Source: a virus. Taken from it: a DNA stretch of 22,297 nucleotides. Below, piece after piece: positions 1 through 15,393 of this stretch (within the stretch, counting starts at the first letter, position 1; the number at the start of each line of letters is the position of its first letter). Position numbers and translations under genes: made by a program. A model generated the notes under the pieces. It did no database searches and had not been told where the DNA came from. It saw only the letters and a list, made by a program, of their open reading frames with translations. Where the stretch lies: positions 1 to 22,297 of IMG/VR virus record IMGVR_UViG_3300046460_000401, one strand, 5' to 3'.

Positions 1-1050
1 CTATTTTGAGGGTTTGGCGATGGCGCCAATGCGGCGATAAACCCGTTCGGTAATGTCGCCTTTCGTGTGTCCAAGCAGCAGGCTGGCGTCACCCACATCG
101 CTGATCTCCGAAGCGGCTTTTGGGCGAATGTCCCGGAACTGAAACTCACCAATCCGTTTTGCAAGCAGCTCATCGCCCTTTTCTAGTGCCTCCAGTTTCG
201 CCTTTTCTCGAGCCGCATCCCATCGCTTCCTAAGCATCGTCGCCGTCATACGCTTGCCGCTTCGGTTGATGATTAAGTAGCTCGAAACGTGCATAACATT
301 TCGCTCAATGATCGCCGCAATTAAGTTGCCCAGGCTGTTTGATTCTCCGGCGGTCGTCATCTGAATACGCAGCTTTTTGTGCGTTTTGTTCTGCTGAACA
401 GTTAGATACCCGCCCACCACATCATCCTTGCGCATGACCAGCACGTCGGCAGGCCGCTGGCCCGTCAGATAAGCCAGATCCATCGCTTCTTTCAGCTCCT
501 GAGCTGCCTTCATATACACCGCATCCCAAACCAAATCGTTGGCGTAATAATCCCTCGGCGTTTCCTTATTTTTGCGCACACCTTGGCAGGGGTTTTCCTT
601 TGTCGTCAGCCCCCATTCACGGGCAATATTGAAAATGTGGGATAGAGTTGCTATCTCGCGATTTGCCCTGACCTTTGCTGACCGCGCATCCCGATAGCCA
701 GCAATTGTTGCCGGCGTAATTGAGTCGATAGGGGCACTATCGAACATCGGCCGAAGCTGCTTGATTTCCGCCAGGTTGTCCTTTTGCGTTCGCGGTGCTT
801 TCTTAGGCACCACGTCACGTATGTACCGGTCAAAGATTCCCTTCATGGTGCGCAGGTCTAGCGGCTTCTCCTTGGCTTCCAGTTCGGCCCATTTAAGTCT
901 GGCCTTGTCGAGATCCTTGCCCAACGGAATGTCGTGGCCGAGCAGATCTCGGTAATAGTAAGCCGTCCATATGTTGCCGTTTTTACGCTTCCTAGAACGC
1001 TTGTACATCCGAGGGGGGAGGTGCTGGTGCTCGGTCTTGCGGGGGCGCAT
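1..1050 (-). CDS. int: Phage tyrosine integrase
   Basis: Site-specific recombinase expected to integrate and excise the phage at its att site. It is 349 aa, a normal length for a phage tyrosine integrase. An N-terminal basic segment (about 1-60) would bind arm sites, a core-binding helical domain spans about 65-160, and the catalytic domain about 165-345. Visible active-site residues are R199 in TGQRPAD, K222, R309 in FRDIRPKAAS, H328 in LLGHTK and Y338. The usual first histidine of HxxR is replaced by R306, as in a known FRDxR subgroup. The stop codon occupies bases 1-3, so attP, if next to int as in most lambdoid phages, lies just outside the window. It is the last gene of the leftward transcript, directly after the DUF4224 gene. 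Confidence 0.95.
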   Translation of the reverse strand: MRPRKTEHQHLPPRMYKRSRKRKNGNIWTAYYYRDLLGHDIPLGKDLDKARLKWAELEAKEKPLDLRTMKGIFDRYIRDVVPKKAPRTQKDNLAEIKQLRPMFDSAPIDSITPATIAGYRDARSAKVRANREIATLSHIFNIAREWGLTTKENPCQGVRKNKETPRDYYANDLVWDAVYMKAAQELKEAMDLAYLTGQRPADVLVMRKDDVVGGYLTVQQNKTHKKLRIQMTTAGESNSLGNLIAAIIERNVMHVSSYLIINRSGKRMTATMLRKRWDAAREKAKLEALEKGDELLAKRIGEFQFRDIRPKAASEISDVGDASLLLGHTKGDITERVYRRIGAIAKPSK

Positions 1051-1051
1051 A

Positions 1052-1294
1052 TCAGTTCACTCGCGAATAGTCTGGCGTCCATGCCGGCACTGTCGGCGGC
1101 GGGTTTGGGTCGGCAATGGCGGGGTTAATCATGCCCAGTTTCATGCGTGCGTACATCCGACCCACGAGTGGGCGTTTGCCGCGGCTTTCGATGAACACCC
1201 ACTGGCGATCAATGAGCCATCGGCGCTGGTAGGCCCGAGCCTTGTAGCCGGTGAGTGCAGCCAGTTCCTCGTCGGAGAGGATTTCGGTTTCCAT
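1052..1294 (-). CDS. DUF4224 domain protein next to integrase
   Basis: An 80-aa protein beginning METEILSDEELAALTGY and continuing with a Q-R-R-W-L motif, the signature I associate with DUF4224. Members are small phage proteins nearly always encoded immediately upstream of integrase. The N-terminal part resembles a short helix-turn-helix, so an excisionase-like or directionality role is plausible but is not established for the family. It lies one base before int and is surely cotranscribed with it. A palindromic repeat (1337-1369) sits about 45 bases upstream of the start, in the space shared with the divergent membrane-protein gene at 1447. Confidence 0.85.
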   Translation of the reverse strand: METEILSDEELAALTGYKARAYQRRWLIDRQWVFIESRGKRPLVGRMYARMKLGMINPAIADPNPPPTVPAWTPDYSRVN

Positions 1295-1336
1295 TGTGAT
1301 GCTCCATTCCGCGCGTGGCGGCCGAAGGGGGGGCGC

Positions 1337-1369
1337 CCTTGCCGCTATAGCGGCTGACTTTCAAGGGGG
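1337..1369. repeat. Palindrome-containing repeat, copy 1
   Basis: A 33-base unit with the perfect 14-base palindrome GCCGCTATAGCGGC (1341-1354) followed by GACTTTCAAGGGGG. A second copy at 2028-2060 matches 31 of 33 positions by eye. Each copy lies between the start of a leftward phage gene and a divergently read accessory gene. It could be an operator, a leader hairpin or a recombination anchor. The sequence alone does not decide. Confidence 0.8.
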
Positions 1370-1446
1370 TTGTGGTTTAGGATCGGGCTACGTTGGCCGA
1401 TATCTGAGTACGCTGATTTGCAAACTAATTGAATGGAGTATTAGCT

Positions 1447-1839
1447 TTGAGAGCGGTCAATCGAGTTATGGGGTTTTTGAGGCGCTGTCAGTATTGGTGG
1501 CTCTTGCTCATGACCACGGCCTCGCTTCTAAACATCTGTATTCGGTTCATTGGAGATTGGAAGAGTTTTTGGACTGTGCTTCTTATCCAGGTGTTTTTTG
1601 GTCAAGCAGTGTTCGCATTTATAAGGGGAGCAGCCATTCACGTTGCGCCTGGCGGACGTCTTTCCAAGGACGCGGATCCAGTTGGCCGAGCTGGATTAGC
1701 GGCATTTTCACTTGCAGTTTATTTTTTAGCTTTTGGTTACGAGCCTGCAAAGCAAGAACAATCAATCTATGAGAAAAGAGCCTCGGATTGGACAATCCCT
1801 GCGCGCGAAGAGATTGGCAGGTCGGCTGAGCAGCAGTAA
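1447..1839 (+). CDS. Small multi-pass membrane protein, accessory
   Basis: A 130-aa protein that I do not recognise. Hydrophobic segments near residues 16-34, 40-60 and 84-98 predict about three membrane helices, with a hydrophilic C-terminal tail, so it should sit in the inner membrane. I chose the TTG at 1447 because GGAG lies 9 bases upstream. Another in-frame TTG at 1429 has no ribosome site. It is read against the surrounding early genes, convergent with the truncated gene ending at 1619 and divergent from the DUF4224 gene. Base composition is AT-richer than the phage backbone. An overlapping frame (1251-1772) is open by chance and gives no protein-like pattern. A lysogenic-conversion or superinfection-exclusion role is inference only. 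Confidence 0.6.
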   Translation: MRAVNRVMGFLRRCQYWWLLLMTTASLLNICIRFIGDWKSFWTVLLIQVFFGQAVFAFIRGAAIHVAPGGRLSKDADPVGRAGLAAFSLAVYFLAFGYEPAKQEQSIYEKRASDWTIPAREEIGRSAEQQ

Positions 1840-2020
1840 TTGATAGTGGTGCATGCTGTTGATCCTCCGCAGGTTCAACGGTCAAACCCTGCTCCGCTAC
1901 CCAGGCCTTGCACTTGTCGCCGTCACCCTCGTCGAAGTCCGGGATATCCGGATGTTGGAACGAGCCCATTTCGTCGCGCACGACCTTTGCTGGCTGGATC
2001 AATCTGATTTCTTCAGACAT
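1619..2020 (-). pseudogene. Truncated phage gene, 5' part only
   Basis: The first 50 or so residues (starting MSEEIRLIQPAKVVRDE, with an acidic PDIPDFDEGDGDKCKAW stretch) look like a conserved short hypothetical of Pseudomonas phages. After about residue 52 the frame merely runs antisense through the accessory membrane-protein gene until a chance stop at 1619. The genuine 3' half is therefore missing, replaced from roughly 1850 leftward by the insert. The start is supported by AAGGA 8-9 bases upstream, inside the second palindromic repeat. The product, if made, is a chimera of 133 aa and unlikely to be functional. Confidence 0.6.
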
Positions 2021-2027
2021 GAGTCGT

Positions 2028-2060
2028 CCTTGCCGCTATAGCGGCTTACTTTGAAGGGGG
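2028..2060. repeat. Palindrome-containing repeat, copy 2
   Basis: Second copy of the unit at 1337-1369, with the same 14-base palindrome at 2032-2045. Here it is only 8 bases from the leftward start at 2020 and supplies that gene's ribosome binding site (AAGGA on the minus strand). On the other side it abuts the accessory membrane gene at 2108. Confidence 0.8.
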
Positions 2061-2107
2061 AGGAGGAATAGCTACACTCATCGCCTTACCAATGGAGGGT
2101 GTGTTCG

Positions 2108-2749
2108 GTGAAGCGATTTAACACGGTACTGATGTGTCTATATTGCTCGTTGCTTTTTTTAGCGGGAGTCGTATTCAGCTTTCTATTTACAAAAACGGGA
2201 GAAGTTGGTTTTGTTGCTTTCTTGGGTGCGGTGGCTAGCTTGGCAACCATCGGCGCAGCTATAACGGCGATTTATGCGTTAAATATCTGGTATCCGCAAT
2301 TTAAGCATTCCGAAAAATTTAAAGCCTTGAAAAGGCTGCGAGAGATTTTGGATGCCGGGAACTCTGCTGAAAAATATATCGAGTCTGTATATTTTGATTG
2401 TATGCGGAGAAATACTAATGAAGTAAGCTCTGGAACTAGAGCAATGGATATGAGGCACGAAGCGAAGGTAAAGTGGCGTCGTCAATGCCTAAGTGTTGAG
2501 CGTTGCTGGGATGACCTGGAAACGCTTTTCTCTCAGAGTGAATTGGCGGCTTTTTCTGATGTGCCAAAGGATATTGATATCGCAGTTGAGAGTCATGTGC
2601 AGAATATCGAATATATGACTTCGGATGGAGCTTCTGTAGATTTCATCCAGTTGGGTCTTCAAGTTAGCGATGTATGCCAAAATGTGAGGTTAAGGATTAA
2701 ACATGTCAGTGATGATTCAAAAGATTTGATATCAAAGTTATTGAGTTGA
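2108..2749 (+). CDS. Two-helix membrane-anchored protein, accessory
   Basis: A 213-aa protein of unknown family. Two N-terminal membrane helices (about 6-27 and 33-55) are followed by a roughly 155-residue soluble, mainly helical domain with many charged residues and several cysteines. This places the bulk of the protein in the cytoplasm. GTG 2108 was chosen because GGAGG ends 9 bases before it. The in-frame GTG at 2099 is too close to that site. The gene looks clearly AT-rich against the phage genes. It lies between the divergent phage gene start at 2020 and a decayed phage gene ending near 2754. The architecture resembles the proteins at 5519, 6766 and 8362, suggesting a common theme (membrane-tethered sensor or exclusion factor), but no homology can be claimed. 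Confidence 0.7.
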   Translation: MKRFNTVLMCLYCSLLFLAGVVFSFLFTKTGEVGFVAFLGAVASLATIGAAITAIYALNIWYPQFKHSEKFKALKRLREILDAGNSAEKYIESVYFDCMRRNTNEVSSGTRAMDMRHEAKVKWRRQCLSVERCWDDLETLFSQSELAAFSDVPKDIDIAVESHVQNIEYMTSDGASVDFIQLGLQVSDVCQNVRLRIKHVSDDSKDLISKLLS

Positions 2750-2753
2750 ATTA

Positions 2754-3081
2754 TCTCTACTAAGTGGGTTGCTAAGCGTTCTCGAGTGAATTTGGCTGTA
2801 GATCAGCGTGCTTTCGAAAGTCGCGTCCTTGATAGCTTCGACCTCCCAGGCGTAGTACTGCGGCACACGACGCGGCCTTCGGCGAAGTCGATCCCATAGT
2901 CGTAATCGATTCGCTTGGTCTGCACGGTGAAAATCACGGCGGCAGTGAGGTTCCGCTTAACGCCGGCGCCGTTGCAGTGATAACGGAGTCGTTCGACGAA
3001 GTCGGTTCAGGTCGAAGCATCAAGCGCGGCGCCGGTCGCCAATGTCGGCATCGGCACGGCCGGTTTGTTTTCTGTGAGCAT
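2754..3081 (-). pseudogene. Decayed phage hypothetical gene
   Basis: Starting at ATG 3081, the frame gives MLTENKPAVPMPTLATG and so on, then meets a TGA at 3007-3009. It continues in the same frame with a protein-like stretch (FVERLRYHCNGAGVKRNLT, then TKRIDYDYGIDFAEGRVVC). Near 2860 the protein-like signal jumps to another frame (YYAWEVEAIKDATFESTLI). This is the pattern of a leftward phage gene with an in-frame stop plus an internal deletion or frameshift, cut off at its 3' end by the insert carrying the 2108 gene. Function of the parent gene is unknown to me. No other gene is visible between 2750 and 3160. Confidence 0.6.
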
Positions 3082-3125
3082 AGGGAATACCTTTGGAGTA
3101 TGGCTTTTTGCCTTTATCTGTTGTA

Positions 3126-3161
3126 TTTGAACCGCTCAGTCCCTACACGGAGCGGTTCAAA
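3126..3161 (+). promoter_or_regulatory. Inverted repeat enclosing the RBS of the 3161 gene
   Basis: TTTGAACCGCT (3126-3136) and AGCGGTTCAAA (3151-3161) are perfect 11-base inverted repeats with a 14-base loop. The right arm contains most of the GGAG ribosome site (3149-3152) and the A of the ATG start. It could be an RNA hairpin that hides the start region, or a DNA operator for autoregulation. Confidence 0.7.
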
Positions 3162-4099
3162 TGGCTGACGGATCTGGTAAAAAGGCTCAAAACTGGGCTA
3201 GCAATCGAATAAAGCACGCGTTGCATCTTCCTGGCTGGGTTTTCAGGCAGGATCGCGAGGCGACTTTGCGTGCCAATGGAAGACCGGTGCTCGTATCTGA
3301 GTATCAGCCAGAGATGAAGGGCGCGCTCTTTTGCCCTGAGTGCTGCTGCCCCCTGTTTCGCTCGCCTGAAAAGGAAGAGGCCAACAAAAAGGGCAAGAAT
3401 GCTTACTATGCACATCGACGTAACATCGTGACTGAGTGCGGCCTAAGAACGAATAAGGCTGAAGGAAAGAAATACTTGACCGAAGAGGAGGCAGCCCAGG
3501 CTATCGCCGACGGAAAACTAGTCATCGTTAAGGGTTTCTTGAAAGATAAACCTGTTTCACCCGACAAAGAAGCCGAAGTTTATAATCAAACAGCGGTGGA
3601 GGATGAGCAAGGTGAAGTATCAGAGGTTGCTATTGGGCGCCATCGAGGTGAAAAATTCAATCTTCCAAGCACTCTGACCACGGTGCGAGGACTATGCACC
3701 AAATTCGATGAAAATCTATATAAGTACTATGTTTTTCCAGAGAAGCAGCATGCGCAGCTACTCCTCGATGCTCTCCGTAATGTGACAACACTTGTTTCCA
3801 CTACCGAGAGCCCAATTCTTGGATATGGACGAATCGTTAGTATTTACGAACCAGGTAAGCGTCCGCAGAGCACTCGATTTGTGAAACTGGCTTTTGAAGC
3901 AAAAGGCGGCTACGGGGACTTCTCTGTGATGATTTCACAGCATGAGGCTGATCTGCATAATCTTAATACTCAATCGATTGACCGATTTGCTATTTTCTAT
4001 GGAAAAATAAGTGTGAATGGCGGCGGTTTGAGTGTGAAGAACATTGGTTGGGGAGAAGTCGCTTTGCTGCCGACAAAATACGAAAAATTCCTAGATTGA
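3161..4099 (+). CDS. CoiA-like zinc-module protein, accessory
   Basis: A 312-aa soluble protein with no signal peptide or membrane helix. Residues 58-93 hold CPEC (C58, C61), two further cysteines (C62, C63), YYAHRR (H85) and C93. This arrangement resembles the Cys/His module found before the nuclease domain in CoiA-like proteins (CPxC ... HFAH ... C). The remainder, including a Glu-rich linker near 105-155 and a beta-rich C-terminal half (about 200-312), matches nothing I know, and I do not see a PD-(D/E)XK core. The ribosome site GGAG lies 8 bases before ATG 3161. It is alone on its strand, divergent from the decayed gene at 3081. A role in DNA or RNA handling or in phage defence is inference from context. 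Confidence 0.7.
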   Translation: MADGSGKKAQNWASNRIKHALHLPGWVFRQDREATLRANGRPVLVSEYQPEMKGALFCPECCCPLFRSPEKEEANKKGKNAYYAHRRNIVTECGLRTNKAEGKKYLTEEEAAQAIADGKLVIVKGFLKDKPVSPDKEAEVYNQTAVEDEQGEVSEVAIGRHRGEKFNLPSTLTTVRGLCTKFDENLYKYYVFPEKQHAQLLLDALRNVTTLVSTTESPILGYGRIVSIYEPGKRPQSTRFVKLAFEAKGGYGDFSVMISQHEADLHNLNTQSIDRFAIFYGKISVNGGGLSVKNIGWGEVALLPTKYEKFLD

Positions 4100-4189
4100 A
4101 TCTTTTGAAAATTGAGCACCGCTTCGGCTGGCGTGATTCGTAGAAGCGGGCATTAGTTGAAGCTCAATGCGAATGAGAAGGTGACTGCG

Positions 4190-4300
4190 ATGAGCGCGAA
4201 ATCCGATGTTCAGGCCTTGCGGCTGATCAGCGATGAGGTTGTTCGCCTGCTCAGCCTTCCTGATGAAAAGTTGGATGCTGAGGCAGAAGTCTTCGACTGA
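4190..4300 (+). CDS. Possible 36-aa small protein
   Basis: A short acidic, helical ORF (MSAKSDVQALRLISDEV, ending EAEVFD) with AAGGTG 6-7 bases before the ATG. It falls in the 275-base space between the 3161 gene and the yejK remnant, which otherwise shows no gene. The codon pattern is compatible with coding and it reads like an intact small protein, but there is no recognised family. It may be part of the same inserted segment as the 3161 gene. Confidence 0.4.
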   Translation: MSAKSDVQALRLISDEVVRLLSLPDEKLDAEAEVFD

Positions 4301-4374
4301 TTGCCGACCTTGCTCGGTGGCGCTAGCGGCTTGCAGCGCCAGTACCGAGGCTCTCTCGCAACAGGAGAAACAGG

Positions 4375-5423
4375 TTAGACGCCTGAGCGCTTGAGCTGTT
4401 CCATAAGCTGGGTTGGCAGGCCGCGGGTCATCGTCCCGCCGGCTTCGTCGAATTCAATCTGCGATCCTAGCAAGTGCTGCTCGAAGCTGATCGACAGGCC
4501 CTCGGCACGACCGGTGAAGCGCCGGAATTTGTTCAGGGTCTTCTTAACAGCCGGAATGGTTGGCGACATGCCGTATTCCTTGTCGAGGATGAAGTTGACG
4601 AACGCCTTGGGCCGGTCTTCGTTGATCAGCTCGGACAGCTCGTCGATAGTGATCGGCTCACCCAACTTGGCTTGGGCCATCGAGTAACTGACAAACGTGT
4701 GCGTCTTCTCGCGGGCGGAGTCTTCCGCAGATCTTAGCTCTCGACGAAGTCACTGAACGCTTTGAGCAGGGTTCGCGTTTCTCCCTGGCCGTCGACGCCT
4801 TCCTGGTAGCCGATGAAGTCGCGAAAGTATTCATTGGATTTGCGCCCTTGCTTACCCTTGAAAAACGAGATGTATTGTTTCGATGATGGGTTTTCCTTCC
4901 ACTCTGTGAGGTTGATTCGAGCGGCCAGGCTGAAGTGATCAAGATTGAGTCGGCGAACAGTTGTTGTCAGAAGGTGCTCGTTGATCGTCCACGCTTCGAC
5001 TTCCTGGAGCAGCGCGATGGTCAGGTACTGCGTCATACCTTGCTGGTAGTGACAGAAGAGAGCATGACCGCCGACCGTGAGATTCGATTCTTCCATCAGC
5101 TTGGTCAGGTGCTCGGCAGCCATCTGGCTAAAGTCGCGGAAAGCAACGCCGTCACCATGCACCGATCCGCGGGCCATATATTACTGAGCCAGCCGCTGAA
5201 TGGGTACGCGCCTGACTCAGCATGAAGCAGACCCCAAGCCTTGCCGGCCTTGGCGTTATAGCTGATGTTTAGGTCGTGCATCAAATCATCGGCGACCTGC
5301 GCATCAGCGAGAGTACGGTCAGCAAGAGTACGGTCAGCGAGGTGAAGAATGGCTGGGGTGCCGTCAGGCTTCTTCTCGATCTTGTGGATGATGATCTGGC
5401 GAATGGGAATGGTGATGACCTCG
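4375..5423 (-). pseudogene. yejK: Frameshifted yejK/ndpA-like nucleoid-associated protein
   Basis: Three leftward reading-frame segments join into one YejK (37-kDa nucleoid-associated protein) homologue. The N-terminal part ([10 protein letters not shown] through a [20 protein letters not shown]-type motif) lies at about 5420-5180. The middle part ([21 protein letters not shown] and [13 protein letters not shown]) ends with TAA near 4734. The C-terminal part ([24 protein letters not shown] to [10 protein letters not shown]) ends at 4375. Frame changes fall near 5180 and 4735. A 15-base in-frame tandem duplication (5306-5335) doubles LADRT. The expected initiator of MPIRQ reads ATT, so the start is also lost or altered, and the 5' edge meets the repeat at 5440. 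YejK proteins bind DNA in the host nucleoid. Several phages carry copies, and this one should be inactive unless frameshifts are sequencing errors. Confidence 0.8.
5306..5335. repeat. 15-base tandem duplication inside yejK remnant
   Basis: AGCGAGAGTACGGTC followed by AGCAAGAGTACGGTC, 14 of 15 identical and in frame, duplicating LADRT on the minus strand. A typical replication-slippage product. Confidence 0.8.
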
Positions 5424-5439
5424 GGTGCGCGCCGCCCTC

Positions 5440-5493
5440 CGTGACCGGTGGTGGCAATTTGGTTTGGATTGGGGTATTACGGGTAACTGGCAT
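5440..5493. repeat. 54-base repeat, copy 1
   Basis: Starts with GTGACCGGTGGTGGCAATTT and ends in GGTAACTGGCAT. The second copy at 7352-7403 is nearly identical. The minus-strand reading ([14 protein letters not shown]) looks like the first codons of a phage gene, and the plus-strand frame is also open. Here it joins the 5' edge of the yejK remnant to the upstream side of the PutAbiC-like gene. Confidence 0.75.
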
Positions 5494-5518
5494 GGAGTCA
5501 GATAAAGTGGAGCAGGTA

Positions 5519-6319
5519 ATGAATAAGAAATCGCGACTTGATTTTTATATAGGGCTAATAATCTTATTTATCATAGGGGCATATATAGCTTATTGGACTT
5601 ATCTTTATGCTGGATTAGATTCCGCGCCACTCGGTGTTCTAGATCGAACTCGTTCTGGGACATTTGGTGATGCGTTTGGCGTAGTAAACGCTCTTTTTTC
5701 AGCGCTGGCATGCAGCGGTGTTGTTGCGACTCTGCTGTACCAACGGCGAGATCTATCCGCTCAAAAGGAAAAATCGGACATGCAGCAATTTGAAACGCAG
5801 TTTTACAGTCGTTTAACATTGCAGCAAAATGTTGTCGATAGACTTGATCTGGTAGACAGTAAAACAAAGGCGGTAATAGCTACTGGACGTGACTGCCTTA
5901 AAACTATTTTTCGTGAAATGAAGAGAATCTACTCTGCTGCTATTAAGACGCGCAAACACGACACCGCACTTACGAAATCTTACTCTGTTGTATGGGGGCA
6001 TTTTCATAGTGACTTAGGTGTCTATATGAGGTCACTTTACAGTGTTTTTAAATTCGTGTCGGAGAGTGAGTACCCCGATAAGAAAAAATTGGGCGTGGTT
6101 GTAAGGTCGCTATTGTCGGATTTCGAATTGGCTCTCATTTTTTACAATTGCTTAAGCGAAAAAGGCGAGAGCTTCAAAAGGTATGCTGAGGAGTTTCATT
6201 TATTTGACAATCTGGATATAGATATTTTGATGTTGAAAGAGGATGTATGTCGATTGCCAAAAGCAGCATGGGGCAACAATGCCGCTGCTCTAGCGGTTTT
6301 CAAGATGCATGAATCTTAG
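5519..6319 (+). CDS. PutAbiC-like putative phage abortive infection protein
   Basis: A 266-aa protein with two N-terminal membrane helices (about 9-30 and 54-74) and a cytoplasmic helical domain. The GTFGDAFGVVNALFSALA stretch (about 47-64), QFETQFYSRL (90-99) and the later YSVVWGHFHSDLGVYMRSLYSVFKF region are the pattern of the putative phage abortive infection family (PutAbiC, PF16872). Named members are thought to stop phage growth by killing or disabling the infected cell; the mechanism is not known. ATG 5519 was chosen because GGAG precedes it by 6 bases. The in-frame ATG at 5492 has no such site. The gene is AT-rich, opposite in strand to the early operon, and flanked by the yejK remnant and a truncated phage gene, so it looks like a prophage-carried defence gene. 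Confidence 0.8.
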   Translation: MNKKSRLDFYIGLIILFIIGAYIAYWTYLYAGLDSAPLGVLDRTRSGTFGDAFGVVNALFSALACSGVVATLLYQRRDLSAQKEKSDMQQFETQFYSRLTLQQNVVDRLDLVDSKTKAVIATGRDCLKTIFREMKRIYSAAIKTRKHDTALTKSYSVVWGHFHSDLGVYMRSLYSVFKFVSESEYPDKKKLGVVVRSLLSDFELALIFYNCLSEKGESFKRYAEEFHLFDNLDIDILMLKEDVCRLPKAAWGNNAAALAVFKMHES

Positions 6320-6332
6320 TGTTCTTTGATAT

Positions 6333-6428
6333 CTATATTATATTTGGTGTGGCGTCCATTGCTTTCGCGTTCTCGCGATTCTTACGGTGTCTGATGGCTT
6401 CCGCCGTCAGCTCCTGTTCCTCGGCCAT
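6333..6428 (-). pseudogene. Truncated phage gene, 31-codon 5' remnant
   Basis: A leftward ORF beginning MAEEQELTAEAIRHRKNREN and stopping after 31 codons at a TAG inside the tail of the PutAbiC insert. Its leader has AGAGGT before ATG and shares the CGGAATTGAAGAGGTAG repeat with the intact gene at 8216. The charged, helical N-terminus looks like a genuine gene start, so I read it as the stump left when the neighbouring insert replaced the 3' part. Confidence 0.5.
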
Positions 6429-6429
6429 G

Positions 6430-6452
6430 GCCTACCTCTTCAATTCCGCTGG
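6430..6452. repeat. Leader repeat (CAGCGGAATTG type), copy 1
   Basis: CCTACCTCTTCAATTCCGCTG on the plus strand, or the ribosome-site leader CAGCGGAATTGAAGAGGTAG on the minus strand just before ATG 6428. Two further copies are at 8220-8240 and 9050-9072. Confidence 0.7.
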
Positions 6453-6507
6453 CTGGCACGTAAGTAGGTGGTGTCTATGCTTCAACTCACACTGGCAGGA
6501 GGCCGAC

Positions 6508-6696
6508 ATGAGGTTGCAGAGCGATGTAGATGCGTTAGCGGCTATTAGAGAGGACGCTAAAGCGATGCTGAAACGGATAGGGCTGCCGGACGATGCAGTG
6601 AAGCTGGAGGTGGTCGTGTTCCTCAGGGAGGTGATCGACCTGGCCAGCTACATGGAGTCCGCGCACCGAATCGTGGAAGCGCCGGGCTTTGTCTGA
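6508..6696 (+). CDS. Small 62-aa helical protein
   Basis: A 62-residue soluble protein (MRLQSDVDALAAIREDAKAM and so on), with alternating charged and hydrophobic residues predicting two or three amphipathic helices. AGGAGG ends 6-7 bases before ATG 6508, a strong ribosome site. Unlike its AT-rich neighbours its composition resembles phage backbone genes. It precedes the 6766 membrane gene by 69 bases on the same strand, so the pair may be cotranscribed. I do not recognise the family. An antitoxin-like or regulatory role would be guesswork. Confidence 0.55.
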   Translation: MRLQSDVDALAAIREDAKAMLKRIGLPDDAVKLEVVVFLREVIDLASYMESAHRIVEAPGFV

Positions 6697-6765
6697 GCTG
6701 GCGTATTGCGCGCCGTTGCGCTATTTGTGGTCGGCCCGGCATAGCGCCGGATCAAGGGAGCAGCA

Positions 6766-7287
6766 ATGTGGGTTGAAGGTGTTTTTATTTGGATCGAGGC
6801 ACATCCAGGGTTAGCCTCATGGCTCCAAGCAATTTTTTCAGTGATTGCAATATGCGCGGCAGCTGCATTCCCAATCTGGCATGAGAAGGCTAAAGAAAAA
6901 CGTCAGATTGGTATCACGCTTACAAGCCTGATGTATCTCGCCAGCGAACTGACGAGCATCCATCGTCGACTGCTGAGAGCGCTTAAAAGTGAAGATGATT
7001 ACTCCGATTGGCGTTTTGGCAATAAGGCTCATGATCTCGAAATGGTATGCGCTCTCGCAGCCGAGATTCACGCCAATATGGTCGTTGGTGAGCGGATGGC
7101 TTACTTGTTTGAAATTCGCAAAAGCTGTGAACATGCAAAGGATCTTGCCTTCATTTTTTCGCAGCACAGTTTCGACAAATCGCTGAGCCCCTACGACTTC
7201 GAGGACATGGTTGCGCGTCAGACTTCCGAAGCTGAATCGATAAATGCATTGTTCGAAGTTCTCAAGGCGGAGAAAAACGCGCTTTGA
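6766..7287 (+). CDS. Single-helix membrane-anchored protein, accessory
   Basis: A 173-aa protein with one N-terminal membrane helix (about 15-38, rich in Ala and Ile). A basic WHEKAKEKRQ stop-transfer stretch follows, then about 130 residues of mostly helical cytoplasmic domain. GGGAG lies about 8 bases before ATG 6766. The gene ends 65 bases before the second copy of the 54-base repeat. The layout, membrane anchor then helical domain, matches the genes at 2108 and 8362. No family recognised. An exclusion or defence function is suggested only by its setting among the opposite-strand accessory genes. Confidence 0.7.
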   Translation: MWVEGVFIWIEAHPGLASWLQAIFSVIAICAAAAFPIWHEKAKEKRQIGITLTSLMYLASELTSIHRRLLRALKSEDDYSDWRFGNKAHDLEMVCALAAEIHANMVVGERMAYLFEIRKSCEHAKDLAFIFSQHSFDKSLSPYDFEDMVARQTSEAESINALFEVLKAEKNAL

Positions 7288-7351
7288 ATAGTTTGATGCT
7301 TTGACCGCATGGTCGACGCTCATCGATATTCGAACTATCCAGATGCCCCCC

Positions 7352-7403
7352 CCGTGACCGGTAGTGGCAATTTGGTTTGGGTTGGGGTATTACAAGTGAC
7401 CGG
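7352..7403. repeat. 54-base repeat, copy 2
   Basis: Second copy of the element at 5440-5493, with GTGACCGG repeated at both its ends. The minus-strand reading (PVTCNTPTQTKLPLPVT) ends at a TAG about five codons further on, so any phage gene that began here is cut off by the insert carrying the 6766 gene. The 7439 gene starts 36 bases downstream. Confidence 0.75.
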
Positions 7404-7438
7404 CAAGGGGCCGGCAAAAAATCATAGGAGCAGATTCC

Positions 7439-7882
7439 ATGGACTTCAGTCGCGATCCAGAAGCTTTTTCAGGTTACTTGAACACCGTCAAGCGTGATTG
7501 GACAGGCGCGGCGAGGGAGTTTATGGGGCTTCTTGAACACTGGCAAACCATAACGAAGCAGTACTATCCAGATCTAGTTGAGATAGGTGTTGGAGAGGAA
7601 GCCAATACCATTAAAGGCAAGGTTCTGGGGAAAGCCTTTTTACTCGAGCTCAGCCCGTTGGCAAAGGATCAAGTTGGTTATGCAGAGGCCATACTCTCGA
7701 CTAGCAACTCAGCAGGAGTAGAGGTAGAAATTGGTCGATTTCTCGTGCGCCGAGACGGAACTCTAGTCGGAGCTGACGGAGATGTCTTAACTGACCCAAT
7801 GTCGAATATGTATAGTTACAAGATATTCACGACCATTCTGCGTGACGTCGTAGAGACTCCCGCCGCAGTTAAGGGGGTGTAA
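7439..7882 (+). CDS. Unknown 147-aa soluble protein, accessory
   Basis: A soluble protein with no signal peptide or membrane helix. The first 50 residues are helical (MDFSRDPEAFSGYLNTVKRD and on, Trp/Tyr rich). The rest looks like a beta-rich fold, with GKVLGKAFLLELSP, VEVEIGRFLVRRDGTLVG and a terminal helix. AGGAG lies about 8 bases before ATG 7439. It ends 10 bases before the stop of the convergent phage gene at 7893, one of the few places where the insert did not damage a resident gene. I do not recognise the family. The EIGRFLVRRDGTL pattern resembles a strand-turn-strand hairpin but no catalytic motif is visible. Confidence 0.7.
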   Translation: MDFSRDPEAFSGYLNTVKRDWTGAAREFMGLLEHWQTITKQYYPDLVEIGVGEEANTIKGKVLGKAFLLELSPLAKDQVGYAEAILSTSNSAGVEVEIGRFLVRRDGTLVGADGDVLTDPMSNMYSYKIFTTILRDVVETPAAVKGV

Positions 7883-7892
7883 TCAGTCTCGG

Positions 7893-8216
7893 CTAATCAT
7901 CATTCAAAGCCCGCAGCGCCTCTCGTTCGTAGGAGTGCTGCAGCTTCCGTGACATGTTTTCGCTTATGATGATTTTAGGTCGCGACATGTCGGCGAATCG
8001 TGCGGACTCTTCAGTAGACGCCCCAGCGATGTTGATCAGGAACGTCGACACCGTCTCCTGCCATTCCTCGAAGTCGTGGCGCTCGCCCAGCACTTGAAGT
8101 GCATCAGCGAGCGCTTTCGACACAATCAGCGATCGCTTCTCGGCGCCGATCCGATCCAGCAGCGCCTTCTCCTTGGCTCGCTTGTCCTTCTGCAATTGCG
8201 CGTTGCTCTTGGCCAT
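7893..8216 (-). CDS. Conserved-looking phage hypothetical protein
   Basis: An intact 107-aa leftward gene. The N-terminus is a strongly charged helix (MAKSNAQLQKDKRAKEKALL), followed by a helical body containing LADALQVLGERHDFEEWQET and a basic C-terminus. This suggests a small nucleic-acid-associated protein, possibly ribbon-helix-helix or other short DNA-binder, but the fold cannot be assigned by eye. The AGAGGT leader lies 7 bases before ATG and belongs to the CGGAATTG repeat. It is part of the PL transcript and, unlike most of its neighbours, undamaged. Confidence 0.75.
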   Translation of the reverse strand: MAKSNAQLQKDKRAKEKALLDRIGAEKRSLIVSKALADALQVLGERHDFEEWQETVSTFLINIAGASTEESARFADMSRPKIIISENMSRKLQHSYEREALRALNDD

Positions 8217-8219
8217 GAC

Positions 8220-8240
8220 CTACCTCTTCAATTCCGCTGT
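8220..8240. repeat. Leader repeat (CAGCGGAATTG type), copy 2
   Basis: Same 20-base core as at 6430, directly upstream of the intact leftward gene at 8216, where it provides the ribosome site. Confidence 0.7.
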
Positions 8241-8361
8241 CTGCGGTCAAACACCATGTATTGCACGGACGAGATTCAGCGAATAGATAAGCGTGATGGC
8301 TTAACGATGGTGCATCTATGCCATCTCGCGTAATATCCCGAAAAAACACAAGGGTGGATAC

Positions 8362-9003
8362 ATGGAAGGTTACACATTGAATGTTGCGGATATTCGTTAT
8401 GATGGTAAAGGAATTCTTGTTGATCAGGCGACAACTACCTCTGTCGGTACTAAAGAACATCCACTAACTGTCTATGTAAGCTCAGATACCGACTGGATAG
8501 CATTCGGCCCAAGTGCAGCAGGCGTTATCGTAGCAATTCTTGTTGCTATTTTGACAATTGGAGTTCAGCGAAATCAGATAAAATCAAATATCAGTAATTT
8601 CAGGCATCACTGGATGGTGGAGCTGCGTAGTGCAGCCTCTGAACTTATTCAATTGATGACGCTTTTAGCAAACTCTGTAACTATGAACCAAGGATACAAG
8701 AAAACGCCAGAGTATTTTGAAAACTGTTCAAAAGCGTCTCAGCTTAGAGCAAAAATTGACTTACTGTTAAGTAGGGATGATGAAACGTCCAAGAAAATAA
8801 TGTCGGCCGGGCTAGAGACTCTAAAAAAAGTTTCGAGTGCTAGCTATCAGGACGACAAGGACAAAATTTTGAGTTATGTATCCGCATATAAACATTTGCT
8901 GCGGGCAGAGCTTGAGAGAGCTTGGGGTCATACCCAGGAAGATCTGGGCATAAATAAGCGTTTTATGTTTTTACGTATGTTCAAAAGAAATGGTTCCACC
9001 TAA
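8362..9003 (+). CDS. Membrane-anchored helical protein, accessory
   Basis: A 213-aa protein. About 47 polar residues are followed by one membrane helix (about 48-68, GPSAAGVIVAILVAILTIGV) and then a long helical domain starting NQIKSNISNFRHHWMVELRS. This membrane-helix plus RxxWxxELR pattern is familiar from many uncharacterised bacterial membrane proteins found near defence genes, but I cannot name a family. AAGGGTGG precedes ATG 8362 by about 5-6 bases. It looks AT-rich against the phage backbone. The insert lies between the intact gene at 8216 and the truncated gene at 9130. It is the last of the opposite-strand accessory genes before the immunity region. Confidence 0.75.
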   Translation: MEGYTLNVADIRYDGKGILVDQATTTSVGTKEHPLTVYVSSDTDWIAFGPSAAGVIVAILVAILTIGVQRNQIKSNISNFRHHWMVELRSAASELIQLMTLLANSVTMNQGYKKTPEYFENCSKASQLRAKIDLLLSRDDETSKKIMSAGLETLKKVSSASYQDDKDKILSYVSAYKHLLRAELERAWGHTQEDLGINKRFMFLRMFKRNGST

Positions 9004-9016
9004 GAGCTGGCTTTTT

Positions 9017-9130
9017 TTAGTCGGTAGTGACGATTATTATTTTAGAGGCTACCTCTCCAATTCCGCTGGCCGGCAAGTCCAGCCAGGTCTGTGGGCGGCG
9101 TGTCGTCGCCTGGTTACTGATGCGTTTCAT
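9017..9130 (-). pseudogene. Truncated small phage gene
   Basis: An ATGA overlap with the stop of the 9127 gene starts a leftward frame (MKRISNQATTRRPQTWLDLP, then ASGIGEV) that leaves phage-like sequence near 9048 and stops 10 codons later inside AT-rich insert sequence. The residues ASGIGEV fall in the third copy of the CGGAATTG repeat. I read it as a cotranscribed phage gene with its 3' part replaced by the insert carrying the 8362 gene. It could still give a 37-aa peptide. Confidence 0.5.
9050..9072. repeat. Leader repeat (CAGCGGAATTG type), copy 3
   Basis: CTACCTCTCCAATTCCGCTG, one base different from the other two copies across the core. No start codon follows it on the minus strand, so the gene that would have begun here has been replaced. 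Confidence 0.65.
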
Positions 9131-10040: not shown

Positions 10041-10069
10041 ATTTAAGCAAGCTGAAATCAAGCAGTCAA
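10041..10069 (-). promoter_or_regulatory. PL promoter
   Basis: Leftward promoter with -35 TTGACT (10064-10069), a 17-base spacer and -10 TTAAAT (10041-10046). Two CI-type operators overlap it, so repressor binding would block it directly. It would drive the leftward early genes down to integrase. Confidence 0.75.
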
Positions 10070-10101
10070 GCATGCTTAATAAAATAATTCAGCAATCTGA
10101 A
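10043..10101. promoter_or_regulatory. OL operators (three sites)
   Basis: TTAAGCAAGCTGAA (10043-10056), TCAAGCATGCTTAA (10066-10079) and TTCAGCAATCTGAA (10088-10101) are 14-base sites with dyad symmetry, starting 22-23 bases apart, i.e. about two helical turns. They match the sites around 11209-11278 next to cro and cI. Confidence 0.8.
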
Positions 10102-10547: not shown

Positions 10548-11198
10548 CTATAACTTCTGCAGCGCCCGGACTACCACACCTACAATGCGGCAGTCTTCGG
10601 CCAGCATCTCAGTTGGATACGCGGGATTCAACGGCTTCAAAAAACGCCTGCCGCCATCATCAACAAGCTTTTTGAAAGTGGCTTGATCGCTATCGGCGAG
10701 TTTTGCGACAACCAGTTTGCCCGATTGCACATCTGCCTCAGTGTCGACGAGGATAAGTGTTCCCTCTGTGATGCTTGTGCCAACCGGCGATGTCATCGAA
10801 TCGCCTTTCACTTCCAGCCAGAACGCGGTTCCCTTGGAGTCATAGTCGGAGAGCTCGTACCGATCTGAGAAACCAGGCGGGAAGGGCTCCACAGCCTCGG
10901 CCCACGCGCCTGCAGCTACCCAGCTGATAACCGGATATCGAAACGACTCCACGGGTTGTCGAGCCGCGCCTACATTCGAATCAGGTTCAACCTCTTCGCC
11001 TTCGCCGATTGCAAGCCATTCAGCCCTAAACCCCGTGGCCTTAGCCAGCGCGTAAAGGTTTTCAGGCCGAATACTTTTACTTTCGCCTGAGATCCATTGA
11101 GTAACGGCAGAATTCGCCACCCCGCAAAGGGCGGCGATTTCCCCTTTCTTTTTCCCACTGAGCGCAATGGCTCGGGCAATACGTTCGTGTCTTTCCAT
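10548..11198 (-). CDS. cI: CI-type repressor (HTH-XRE plus S24 peptidase)
   Basis: A 216-aa phage repressor. Residues 1-65 form the helix-turn-helix (KKGEIAALCGVANSAVTQWI) and 90-216 the LexA/CI-like S24 self-cleavage and dimerisation domain. The expected cleavage site is A96-G97 (VAAGAWAE), the nucleophile is S134 (KGDSM) and the general base K177 (TFKKL). It should bind the 14-base operators at OL and OR, keep PL and PR off in the lysogen and be inactivated by RecA-stimulated autocleavage after DNA damage. The start codon lies only 7 bases past a TAATAT -10 sequence, with no ribosome site, so the mRNA is probably leaderless like lambda cI from PRM. Divergent from cro. Confidence 0.95.
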   Translation of the reverse strand: MERHERIARAIALSGKKKGEIAALCGVANSAVTQWISGESKSIRPENLYALAKATGFRAEWLAIGEGEEVEPDSNVGAARQPVESFRYPVISWVAAGAWAEAVEPFPPGFSDRYELSDYDSKGTAFWLEVKGDSMTSPVGTSITEGTLILVDTEADVQSGKLVVAKLADSDQATFKKLVDDGGRRFLKPLNPAYPTEMLAEDCRIVGVVVRALQKL

Positions 11199-11205
11199 GA
11201 CGCCA

Positions 11206-11211
11206 ATATTA
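11206..11211 (-). promoter_or_regulatory. PRM -10 element
   Basis: TAATAT on the minus strand, with no convincing -35, as expected for an activator-dependent maintenance promoter. An operator (11209-11222) overlaps it. Confidence 0.5.
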
Positions 11212-11278
11212 AGTTAGCTGAATTTAAGTATGCAGAGTGCTTAATTCTGCGTTGACGCCATAACTTCAGCATGCTGAA
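11209..11278. promoter_or_regulatory. OR operators
   Basis: TTAAGTTAGCTGAA (11209-11222), an imperfect site read on the minus strand as TTAAGCACTCTGCA (11231-11244), and the perfect palindrome TTCAGCATGCTGAA (11265-11278). They share the consensus of OL and lie between cI and cro. The palindrome sits between the -35 and -10 of PR. Confidence 0.8.
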
Positions 11279-11307: not shown

Positions 11308-11487
11308 ATGAATACGCGTGAGGTCGCCGAACACTTCGGCAGCAAGAAAAAGTTAGCGGTTGCGCTGGGAATCCATCCAAGTGCCGTGACCATGTGGGGG
11401 GAAACGATCCCAGAGTCCCGCCAGTACCAGATTCAGGTTCTTTCCAAAGGGAAATTCAAAGCGGAGCGTAAAAGCGACGCCCCATAG
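11308..11487 (+). CDS. cro: Cro-like repressor
   Basis: A 59-aa DNA-binding protein with the compact Cro pattern: VAEHFGSKKKLAVALGIHPS followed by AVTMWGETIPESRQYQI, a helix-turn-helix with the W-x-x-x-IPE-x-R-x-x-x-I tail seen in P22-type Cro proteins. It is too short for domains beyond the helix-turn-helix. It is the first gene after PR and divergent from cI, and would bind the same operators to favour lytic growth. The ribosome site is GAGG at 11297-11300, about 7 bases from ATG 11308. Confidence 0.85.
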   Translation: MNTREVAEHFGSKKKLAVALGIHPSAVTMWGETIPESRQYQIQVLSKGKFKAERKSDAP

Positions 11488-13823: not shown

Positions 13824-14116
13824 GCTCGAAGAAGCTTCGCGCCTCGGCCGATGGCCAAGAGTGCACCGTCCGGATGCCAGGCATCTGCAATCGCAATCCA
13901 GAAACCACCGTCCTCGCGCATCTGCCTTGCGGGCAGAAGGGTATGGGCATGAAAGGCTTTGACACCGTGGCGGTGTACGCGTGCTGCGCTTGCCACGACG
14001 TGATCGACGGCCGCGCCGCCGTCGAGATCGACTGGCAGGACGTTCCGCGCGCCATCGCCGAAACCCACGAAGCCCTGATCAGGGCTGGAATTCTCACCGT
14101 GAAGGGGGCCGCATGA
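13814..14116 (+). CDS. YbcO/DUF1364-like putative nuclease
   Basis: A 100-aa protein of the DUF1364 family found in the nin region of lambdoid phages (E. coli prophage YbcO is the named example). Conserved cysteines and histidines (ECTVRMPGIC, LAHLPCG, ACCACHDVIDGR) form what looks like an HNH-type zinc fold with C-x-x-C-H. A DNA nuclease or recombination role is proposed for the family but unproven. ATG 13814 is chosen because the conserved N-terminus (KKLRASADGQECTVR) follows directly. An earlier in-frame start at 13760 would overlap far into the preceding gene. Confidence 0.8.
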   Translation: MRVSSKKLRASADGQECTVRMPGICNRNPETTVLAHLPCGQKGMGMKGFDTVAVYACCACHDVIDGRAAVEIDWQDVPRAIAETHEALIRAGILTVKGAA

Positions 14117-15393
14117 GTACCGCCGCGGTGAAGATCACGGAAGCTGAGATCAAGCGCCAAGTGGCCGGCACCGTACAGGACGTACGCGACATTGGGAATA
14201 AGGGCCTGTACCTGCGCTTCAACAAGGCTCGAACCGGTGGCTCGTGGTACCTGGTGTTGAAGGGCAAGTGGAATCCCATCGGCACGTTCCCCGAGCTGAC
14301 TCACAAACAGGTTGTAGCGGCGCTGCCTTCGCTTCGGCTGCGTCTGGCCGCCGGGGAGAGCGCGAGCCTGTCGAAGTGGAACGCTGTTGGCGAACTGCTG
14401 GACTGGTTCGCTGATCGCATGTCGCGCGATCGCAATCTGTCGACCAAACGTAAAAACACCGGCGCCTCGATCATCAAGTGCCACCTGAAACCGCGCCTCG
14501 GCGAGCTGCCCCTGATCGGTATCGACAAGGCTGCTCTCGACACCCTACTGATGTGGCCGCTGCAGGAGACGGTTTCCATCGACTACGTGCGTTCCGCGTT
14601 CCAGCTATTGGCCTTGTCATTCCGGCAGGCGGCCAAGCTGGGGTTGATCACGCCCAACCCGATGGCAGCGATCCGGTTCAACGACTTCTCTAAGGCAAAG
14701 GTCGGCATCAAGCCGTCCCGTCTGCGCGGCGTTCAGTTGGAAGGCCTGCTCGGGCAACTGGCCGAAGTCATGAGCACTGCGCCGCTGGATTCGATGCTCG
14801 CACTGATGATGCTCTGCCATGGCACGCGGATCGGTGAAACCCGGATGGCGCGCTGGTCGCACATCAGCCTGGCCGAACGCGAATGGTTCATCCCGGCCGA
14901 GAATACGAAAACCGGTGTCGAGCATCACCTGCCTCTGACAGAGCAAGTATGCACGCTGCTGACCCGGTATCGAGAAGGCCAATACGCTCGAGGCTATGAG
15001 GGCCAGTGCCTGTTCCCGGCACGTAATGGCAAGGCGCTAGGCGAGGCTCAGGGCTGCGCAGTGTTTCGTCGACTGGGGCAGGGCGATTGGACCAGCCACG
15101 ACCTGCGCAAGGTGGCGCGCACCAGTTGGGCAGACCTTGGCATCGATCACCTGATTGGTGAGCTGCTGATCAACCACGCGATGGGCCACAACGTGAAGGT
15201 GTACATCCAGTCCGACGTGATGAGTCGCAAGCGTGACGCTCTCGAACAGTGGCACGCGCATCTAGATCAGAAAGGGTTTGCAGCGATTCACGGATTGACC
15301 GGCGTTAGATTTGAAGATTCCGGTAATCCGCTGCAAGCCACAGAACATAAGGCCTGCAAGGCCATTCAAGAAACAACCATAGGCGAGGTTTAA
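14113..15393 (+). CDS. Second tyrosine recombinase, in the early operon
   Basis: A 426-aa full-length tyrosine recombinase. It has an N-terminal arm-binding-like domain (about 15-80, GLYLRFNKARTGGSWYLVLK), a core-binding domain (about 88-190) and a catalytic domain (about 205-390). The complete active site is visible: R239 (HGTRIGE), K266, H329 and R332 (SHDLR), H355 and Y364. It is unrelated in detail to the integrase at 1-1050. The ATG overlaps the stop of the DUF1364 gene, so it is a built-in member of the rightward early operon, not a separate insertion with its own att module. Its substrate is unknown. Resolution of phage multimers, inversion or control of cargo exchange are all possible. 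Confidence 0.9.
   Translation: MSTAAVKITEAEIKRQVAGTVQDVRDIGNKGLYLRFNKARTGGSWYLVLKGKWNPIGTFPELTHKQVVAALPSLRLRLAAGESASLSKWNAVGELLDWFADRMSRDRNLSTKRKNTGASIIKCHLKPRLGELPLIGIDKAALDTLLMWPLQETVSIDYVRSAFQLLALSFRQAAKLGLITPNPMAAIRFNDFSKAKVGIKPSRLRGVQLEGLLGQLAEVMSTAPLDSMLALMMLCHGTRIGETRMARWSHISLAEREWFIPAENTKTGVEHHLPLTEQVCTLLTRYREGQYARGYEGQCLFPARNGKALGEAQGCAVFRRLGQGDWTSHDLRKVARTSWADLGIDHLIGELLINHAMGHNVKVYIQSDVMSRKRDALEQWHAHLDQKGFAAIHGLTGVRFEDSGNPLQATEHKACKAIQETTIGEV

Follow-up and report, generated by a model that had tools for sequence, protein, structure and literature searches.

How does a lambdoid phage come to carry, within an early operon transcribed in one direction, a series of genes on the opposite strand, and what keeps them apart from the genes around them? 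The question is raised by the left arm of virus record IMGVR_UViG_3300046460_000401, of which the whole stretch analysed (the window, 22,297 bases) is a fragment of a lambdoid Pseudomonas phage. From int to 9.1 kb, nine open reading frames on the plus strand (ORFs; 1429–1839, 2108–2749, 3161–4099, 4190–4300, 5519–6319, 6508–6696, 6766–7287, 7439–7882 and 8362–9003) are interspersed with minus-strand early genes, as a sequence-only reading of this DNA had described. We refer to the former as cargo and to the latter as residents. The left arm is probably a PL operon studded with single-gene morons, which are exchanged by recombination at leader sequences shared between residents. This conclusion draws directly on the layout of the arm, the shared leaders, a bias of breakpoints towards them, the fidelity of genes to one strand, a contrast in gene content and the operators. 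Same-strand relatives elsewhere were found for eight of the plus-strand ORFs, in a check that covered all but the 36-codon ORF 4190–4300, which is unproven. Differences from the relatives peak at the third codon position (49/26/152 for 3161–4099, 3/5/15 for 1429–1839, 7/1/12 for 6508–6696, 10/10/28 for 6766–7287, and 11/15/45 in a further comparison; 4190–4300 excluded), and these ORFs are therefore real genes.

Relatives were collected as 80 viral contigs with the same integrase, followed by calling, clustering and ordering of their genes; after arms of other architecture were set aside, 74 arms including the window were retained. Opposite-strand genes were present in all 74, amounting to 310 genes in 161 clusters (109 singletons), with a median of four per arm. 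The GC content was 47.7% for these 310 genes versus 58.5% for the 752 same-strand genes, and only two of the 85 families with at least three members occurred on both strands. The other arms have the same layout and joints, with residents mostly intact, and carry different cargo at the same joints, which is what alignment across related prophages had been proposed to look for. This recurrence supports the earlier suggestion of a standing exchange site as opposed to one event. The accompanying claim that cargo had been inserted among resident genes needs amendment, since there is no otherwise fixed gene set: arms normally carry cargo, and exchange affects the residents as well. Strict alternation of strands was also considered as a signal and rejected, as '<<' neighbours numbered 92, about the expectation for 310 opposite-strand genes among 1062. 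The signal lies in the joints, the strand fidelity and the content.

What truly marks these arms out is that their 5' joints draw on a small set of common leader sequences. Joints were first grouped by single-linkage clustering, which was replaced by k-mer families because nearly everything merged. A de novo search revealed that about eight leader families cover 188 of the 212 divergent gaps between cargo and resident genes. The leaders are short sequences that immediately precede many unrelated genes of the minus strand, and each of the four largest families precedes 10–16 unrelated residents and 24–27 cargo families (13 and 25, respectively, for leader A). Their orientation is nearly uniform, with 485 on the resident strand and 12 on the other. 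Joints B and D have in common, on their cargo side, a TGGC-17-TATT element and, after it, a CCGGC...GCCGG hairpin with a Shine-Dalgarno site, placed immediately ahead of many unrelated cargo genes; this arrangement looks like a standard cargo promoter, which generic promoter scans do not prove. At the 3' joints, no shared element was found in 199 convergent junctions. The loop of the cargo-side hairpin is often AUGGA beside an AGGAG-type Shine-Dalgarno site (for example in arms L013, L014 and L031), similar to a CsrA/Rsm site; a CsrA homolog is also found among the resident families. A CsrA/Rsm switch acting on this hairpin was not adopted, as the loop varies (ATGGA in 10 of 46), and is kept as a lead.

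Within the window, three repeat families sit at the joints, with copies at 1334/2025, 5435/7348 and 6420/8208/9037, and these are the leaders that recur in the relatives. Since mismatches in the best-matching copies of leaders A, B and C also fall far below every shuffle, the joints are not due to chance. On the minus strand, leader X of the xis-position gene (1295–1331; 4/40 mismatches, shuffle minimum 16) is fused to the first copy of leader A (1334–1369, repeat D3; 9/42 mismatches, minimum 16), and the second copy lies at 2025–2063 (8/42, minimum 16). Leader F (3066–3086; 2/18, minimum 4) and a diverged leader D (4109–4156; 17/48, minimum 20) follow, the latter also being found after homologous cargo in L139. 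Joint B, which combines the ndpA leader on the minus strand with a putative cargo promoter on the plus strand, is present at 5425–5506 (repeat D1; 5/58, minimum 27) and again at 7338–7419 (10/58, minimum 27). Leader C occurs three times on the minus strand, at 6423–6461 (1/32, minimum 11), 8206–8243 (3/32, minimum 11) and 9040–9092, where it is cut at the Shine-Dalgarno site and marks a breakpoint. Element K, a cargo-side hairpin with a Shine-Dalgarno site, lies on the plus strand at 6736–6759 (4/24, minimum 8). Pieces of joint B and adjoining DNA of the window arm are also present in phage records from human fecal samples, among them MT835699.1.

Comparison with intact relatives revealed that almost all minus-strand genes from xis to 9.1 kb are truncated, deleted or frameshifted. 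The five residents previously named as truncated or decayed (1619, 2754, 6333, the start at 7396, and 9017) are all broken, and ndpA, absent from that list, is frameshifted too. The 1619–2020 ORF consists of the first 48 codons of a cluster 8 gene of about 108 codons (1877–2020) fused to the last 22 codons of a cluster 13 gene (1802–1867), and the cluster 42 gene (2795–3081), intact in L137, has an internal deletion of about 95 codons (residues 74–168). The ndpA/yejK pseudogene (4375–5425) is spread over three frames, with PF04245 matched on separate ORFs and tblastn pieces at 5180–5425, 4683–5150 and 4378–4728, and a copy of gene 1 is truncated to 26 codons (6351–6428, ORF 6333). Three leaders have no gene behind them (4109–4156, 7338–7395 and 9040–9071). 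The only near-intact resident in the stretch is gene 1 (phrog_5439; 7893–8216, minus strand), of cluster 1 with 78 members. In the window the minus-strand genes are thus worn and the plus-strand genes conserved. Cargo makes up 64% of its coding length, ranking first among the 74 arms (median 29%), and the window is an extreme case, with joints A and B doubled, joint C tripled, nine cargo ORFs and nearly all residents lost. Gene 1 encodes a small protein that heads the commonest cargo site in nearly all relatives, sometimes in tandem together with its leader (L009, L014 and L053). At 5310–5340 the ndpA pseudogene contains a tandem duplication of about 15 bp (AGAGTACGGTCAGC).

The wear of the residents, including an ndpA pseudogene with several lesions, raises the alternative that the window is a decaying prophage whose residents were lost by deletion and drift, the cargo pattern being what was left over. 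We consider this doubtful as an account of the arm. Decay would explain the extremity of the window but not the architecture, since the shared layout and joints of arms with mostly intact residents are left unexplained, and the window itself has intact int, repressor, terminase and portal ORFs.

Exchange was then traced through tracts shared between arms at ≥90% identity. These tracts start ≤15 bp from a leader in 47.7% of cases versus 8.0% at random, a six-fold enrichment, whereas 13.2% end at a leader, versus 8.0% at random. In the window, L001 matches at 97% from int through the end of the first cargo gene, and L067 (98%, from 9046) and L060 (97%, from 9049) match rightward from the third C leader, where the match stops. 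In 18 relatives the joint at 9040–9092 is closed (intergenic distance 73–82 bp in 17 of these); the window and L077 are the only arms in which it is filled. In the window, L137 and L138 alike, the cargo gene 2108–2749 adjoins leader A; the resident behind the leader differs in each of the three arms, and the genes 3' of the cargo differ as well. Cargo families are also found at differing leaders. By position and composition the cargo genes are morons: they differ from their neighbours in base composition, and at joint C cargo lies between conserved phage genes and is absent from the same place in relatives.

Leaders might instead be retained only as regulatory or translation signals, with recombination amounting to ordinary illegitimate mosaicism that tolerates breaks between genes. 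This would be consistent with the short hairpin that several leaders form beside the Shine-Dalgarno site, which folds better than shuffles (z −3.2 for A and −2.9 for G), with the many breakpoints that lie away from leaders, and with the start-associated sequences of cluster K mycobacteriophages, which are found ahead of genes from many families (PMC3203893). Under plain tolerance, gaps on either side should be enriched, but tract starts are enriched at leaders and tract ends hardly at all; convergent gaps have no shared element, and a single leader is near identical before many unrelated genes. We therefore regard this alternative as unlikely. A third proposal, that cargo moves as integron- or transposon-like cassettes through an enzyme acting on the leader, is very improbable: leader A holds a perfect 14-nt palindrome (GCCGCTATAGCGGC) and joints B and C are repeated within one arm, but the absence of a shared element at the 199 convergent junctions argues against an integron-type recombination site at both gene ends and, since no terminal inverted repeats or target duplications were seen either, against a transposon or integron origin altogether, while several unrelated leader sequences serve the same role and an IS66 transposase is found in one cargo only.

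In the favoured explanation, recombination at shared leaders, each of the minus-strand residents (early lytic, recombination and anti-restriction genes) would be translated from one of a few standard leaders at its 5' end, often with a short hairpin next to the Shine-Dalgarno site. Cargo would sit just upstream of a leader, divergent from the resident behind it and converging on the following one. The recurrence of the same leaders among unrelated genes and phages could allow homologous recombination between leaders to swap whatever lies upstream. At the far end, joining would be illegitimate, within or close to the 3' end of the neighbouring resident, hence the frequent clipping of that resident. 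The RecT, ERF and YqaJ-type residents of the family could supply the recombination.

The operators bear on how cargo might be expressed. Three CI-type operator sites at 10043–10101 (oL) match three at cI/cro (oR, 11209–11278), which places PL at about 10.05 kb, and leftward transcription from there would run along the residents to int, antisense to all cargo, in agreement with the sequence-only reading. Situated on the other strand within the interval from oL/PL to int, cargo is in this sense nested in an operon driven from elsewhere, the operon itself being deduced from anatomy. From this arrangement and from precedents we infer that cargo, with promoters of its own, would be expressed in the lysogen, where CI keeps PL shut, and that antisense PL transcription would damp it upon induction. 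Its role may be mainly anti-phage or exclusion. More tentatively, and we would sooner doubt this than assert it, each leader may combine recombination homology, a translation leader for a lytic gene and a promoter for an opposite-strand lysogeny gene, such that a gene landing there would be expressed in the lysogen and switched off upon induction with no need for a dedicated regulator.

Several observations weigh against this explanation. Gene calls came from a home-made caller, and tract ends were measured among related phages, so that breakpoints are not all independent events. Leader C serves as a cargo site in only 9 of 67 cases, and in an independent set of 20 chromosomal sites the gene directly upstream of leader A is cargo in just five. 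Generic sigma-70 promoter scans of the arm gave results near chance, and promoter-like matches upstream of cargo showed a modest excess (22% versus 14% in shuffles). In the window, the interval from cI to the joints contained no recognisable recombinase gene. 'Defence' is a minority annotation among cargo, because most cargo has no family assignment.

A predicted membrane helix is present in 64 of 157 cargo families versus 9 of 153 resident families (Fisher p 6e-14), and helices are also predicted in several of the window's cargo proteins, as had been noticed earlier. Profile matches among cargo (149 proteins) comprised the known defence families PutAbiC, AbiEii-type AAA, SLATT_5, PIN, KwaB, AriA, AbiLi and HEC-01, together with RelA/SpoT and an ion channel. 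Matches among residents (110 proteins) were to DNA methylases, PAPS reductases, NdpA, RecT, ERF and Gp157, and YqaJ-type genes are also among the family's residents; NCBIfam profiles gave nothing above cut-off for the left-arm minus-strand genes of the window. From these matches, a split of lysogeny-type and lytic-type functions by strand is visible, although the greater part of the cargo has no assignment.

In the window, the PutAbiC/AbiP-like membrane protein of 266 amino acids (5519–6319) passes the curated cut-off of PF16872 (66.8 bits against 22; 2.5e-18) and matches PADLOC AbiP (9.3e-15); the original PutAbiC-like label is upheld, with the start most likely at 5519 and not 5276, and a PDB sequence search with this protein gave no match. 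The label CoiA-like for the 312-amino-acid product of 3161–4099 was dropped, as no CoiA model matched and DUF7828 alone was found, below cut-off (E 0.04); this gene has no assigned family and an 82% homolog in L139. The 1429–1839 gene (136 amino acids, membrane helices) is 97% identical in DNA to L001. The 2108–2749 gene (213 amino acids) encodes two membrane helices and a helical domain, with an 88% homolog at the same leader in L137; its helical model (predicted local distance difference test, pLDDT, 81.7) gave no match at E≤0.001 in PDB or viral libraries. The 8362–9003 gene (213 amino acids) encodes one membrane helix and a helical domain, has a 49% homolog in a Pseudomonas chromosome, L131, and gave a structure model that is poor at the N-terminus (mean 64.6). 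The remaining cargo comprises 6766–7287 (173 amino acids, one membrane helix; relative in L057), 7439–7882 (147 amino acids; cluster 59, with L006, L041 and phage PseuP_222) and the co-cargo ORF 6508–6696 (62 amino acids, cluster 10). The last recurs in related arms, with 20 further calls at leaders C and D.

Leader A was detected in 83 of 299 sampled Pseudomonas genomes (28%), with zero control matches, and in 3 of 294 genomes of an order-wide draw, all three also in the Pseudomonas set; the cargo-promoter pattern was found in 25 of the 299. At the 20 chromosomal sites, which were chosen by leader A and not by integrase, 17 had opposite-strand genes nearby and 18 had leader C with gene 1. The open literature searched contained no description of these joints, and the paper on PseuP_222/224 lists most genes of the region as hypothetical (PMC10305613).

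The closest comparisons are with five kinds of known arrangement. Morons of temperate phages lie antisense to lytic genes and have lower GC, and one such accessory gene in Salmonella prophages has its own promoter and is expressed in the lysogen (PMC7067206). The present cargo resembles these morons in being antisense and of lower GC, but each arm holds several of them, at joints that are shared and recur, the residents are clipped, and lysogenic expression is putative. The start-associated sequences of cluster K mycobacteriophages are 13-bp consensus repeats before gene starts, some with inverted repeats (PMC3203893), whereas the leaders form several longer families tied to recombination breakpoints and opposite-strand cargo. 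As cited in PMC4503421 (Arbiol 2010, Comeau 2014), the PeSL of T4-type phage cassettes is a short conserved intergenic promoter/stem-loop element between unrelated small genes, linked to gene shuffling. A recurrent element with a stem-loop between unrelated genes is likewise present at the joints described here, with exchange breakpoints at the element on the start side; on that description, the differences are that these are temperate lambdoid Pseudomonas phages with several element families and divergent opposite-strand genes, and that the promoter is only putative. The Tha/Ith noncontiguous operons of S. aureus phages also nest an antisense gene in a phage operon, coupling defence to lysogeny (PMC11087260). 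They involve one or a few fixed genes, with transcripts shown and the defence gene on the cI strand, whereas the Pseudomonas arms have many exchangeable genes opposite the PL operon, as read from their anatomy. The arms work like PeSL joints and noncontiguous operons, and we do not claim membership in an established shuffling system. Phage-encoded antiviral hotspots, as summarised in PMC13182921 (citing Rousset 2022), hold variable defence-like genes at fixed prophage places; compared with that summary, the arms have many small sites each, tied to shared leaders and confined to Pseudomonas in the sampled genomes.

If the explanation is correct, the leaders would be searchable tags, and the opposite-strand genes adjoining them candidate lysogeny, defence or exclusion genes, mostly from families of no known function. 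The question of how single genes are traded at set positions in lambdoid phages would then have a specific answer open to testing, and strand by itself could suffice to keep the lysogenic and lytic functions of one operon apart. Shared joints could also explain continued swapping of defence genes among such viruses.

The arm is bounded on the left by a tyrosine integrase at the distal end of the PL operon (1–1050, minus strand; a 349-amino-acid ORF whose relatives in the 80 viral contigs have 81–99% amino acid identity) and the xis-position gene (1052–1294, minus strand; cluster 2, 75 members). To its right lie the CI-type repressor (10548–11198, minus strand; LexA/S24-type match) and the cro-position gene starting at 11308 (plus strand), followed by replication, terminase and portal-position ORFs. 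The early genes of the right arm include a second integrase-domain gene (14113–15393, plus strand; 426 amino acids), which has a weak PRK09692 match, below cut-off, and relatives in five other loci (cluster 37).

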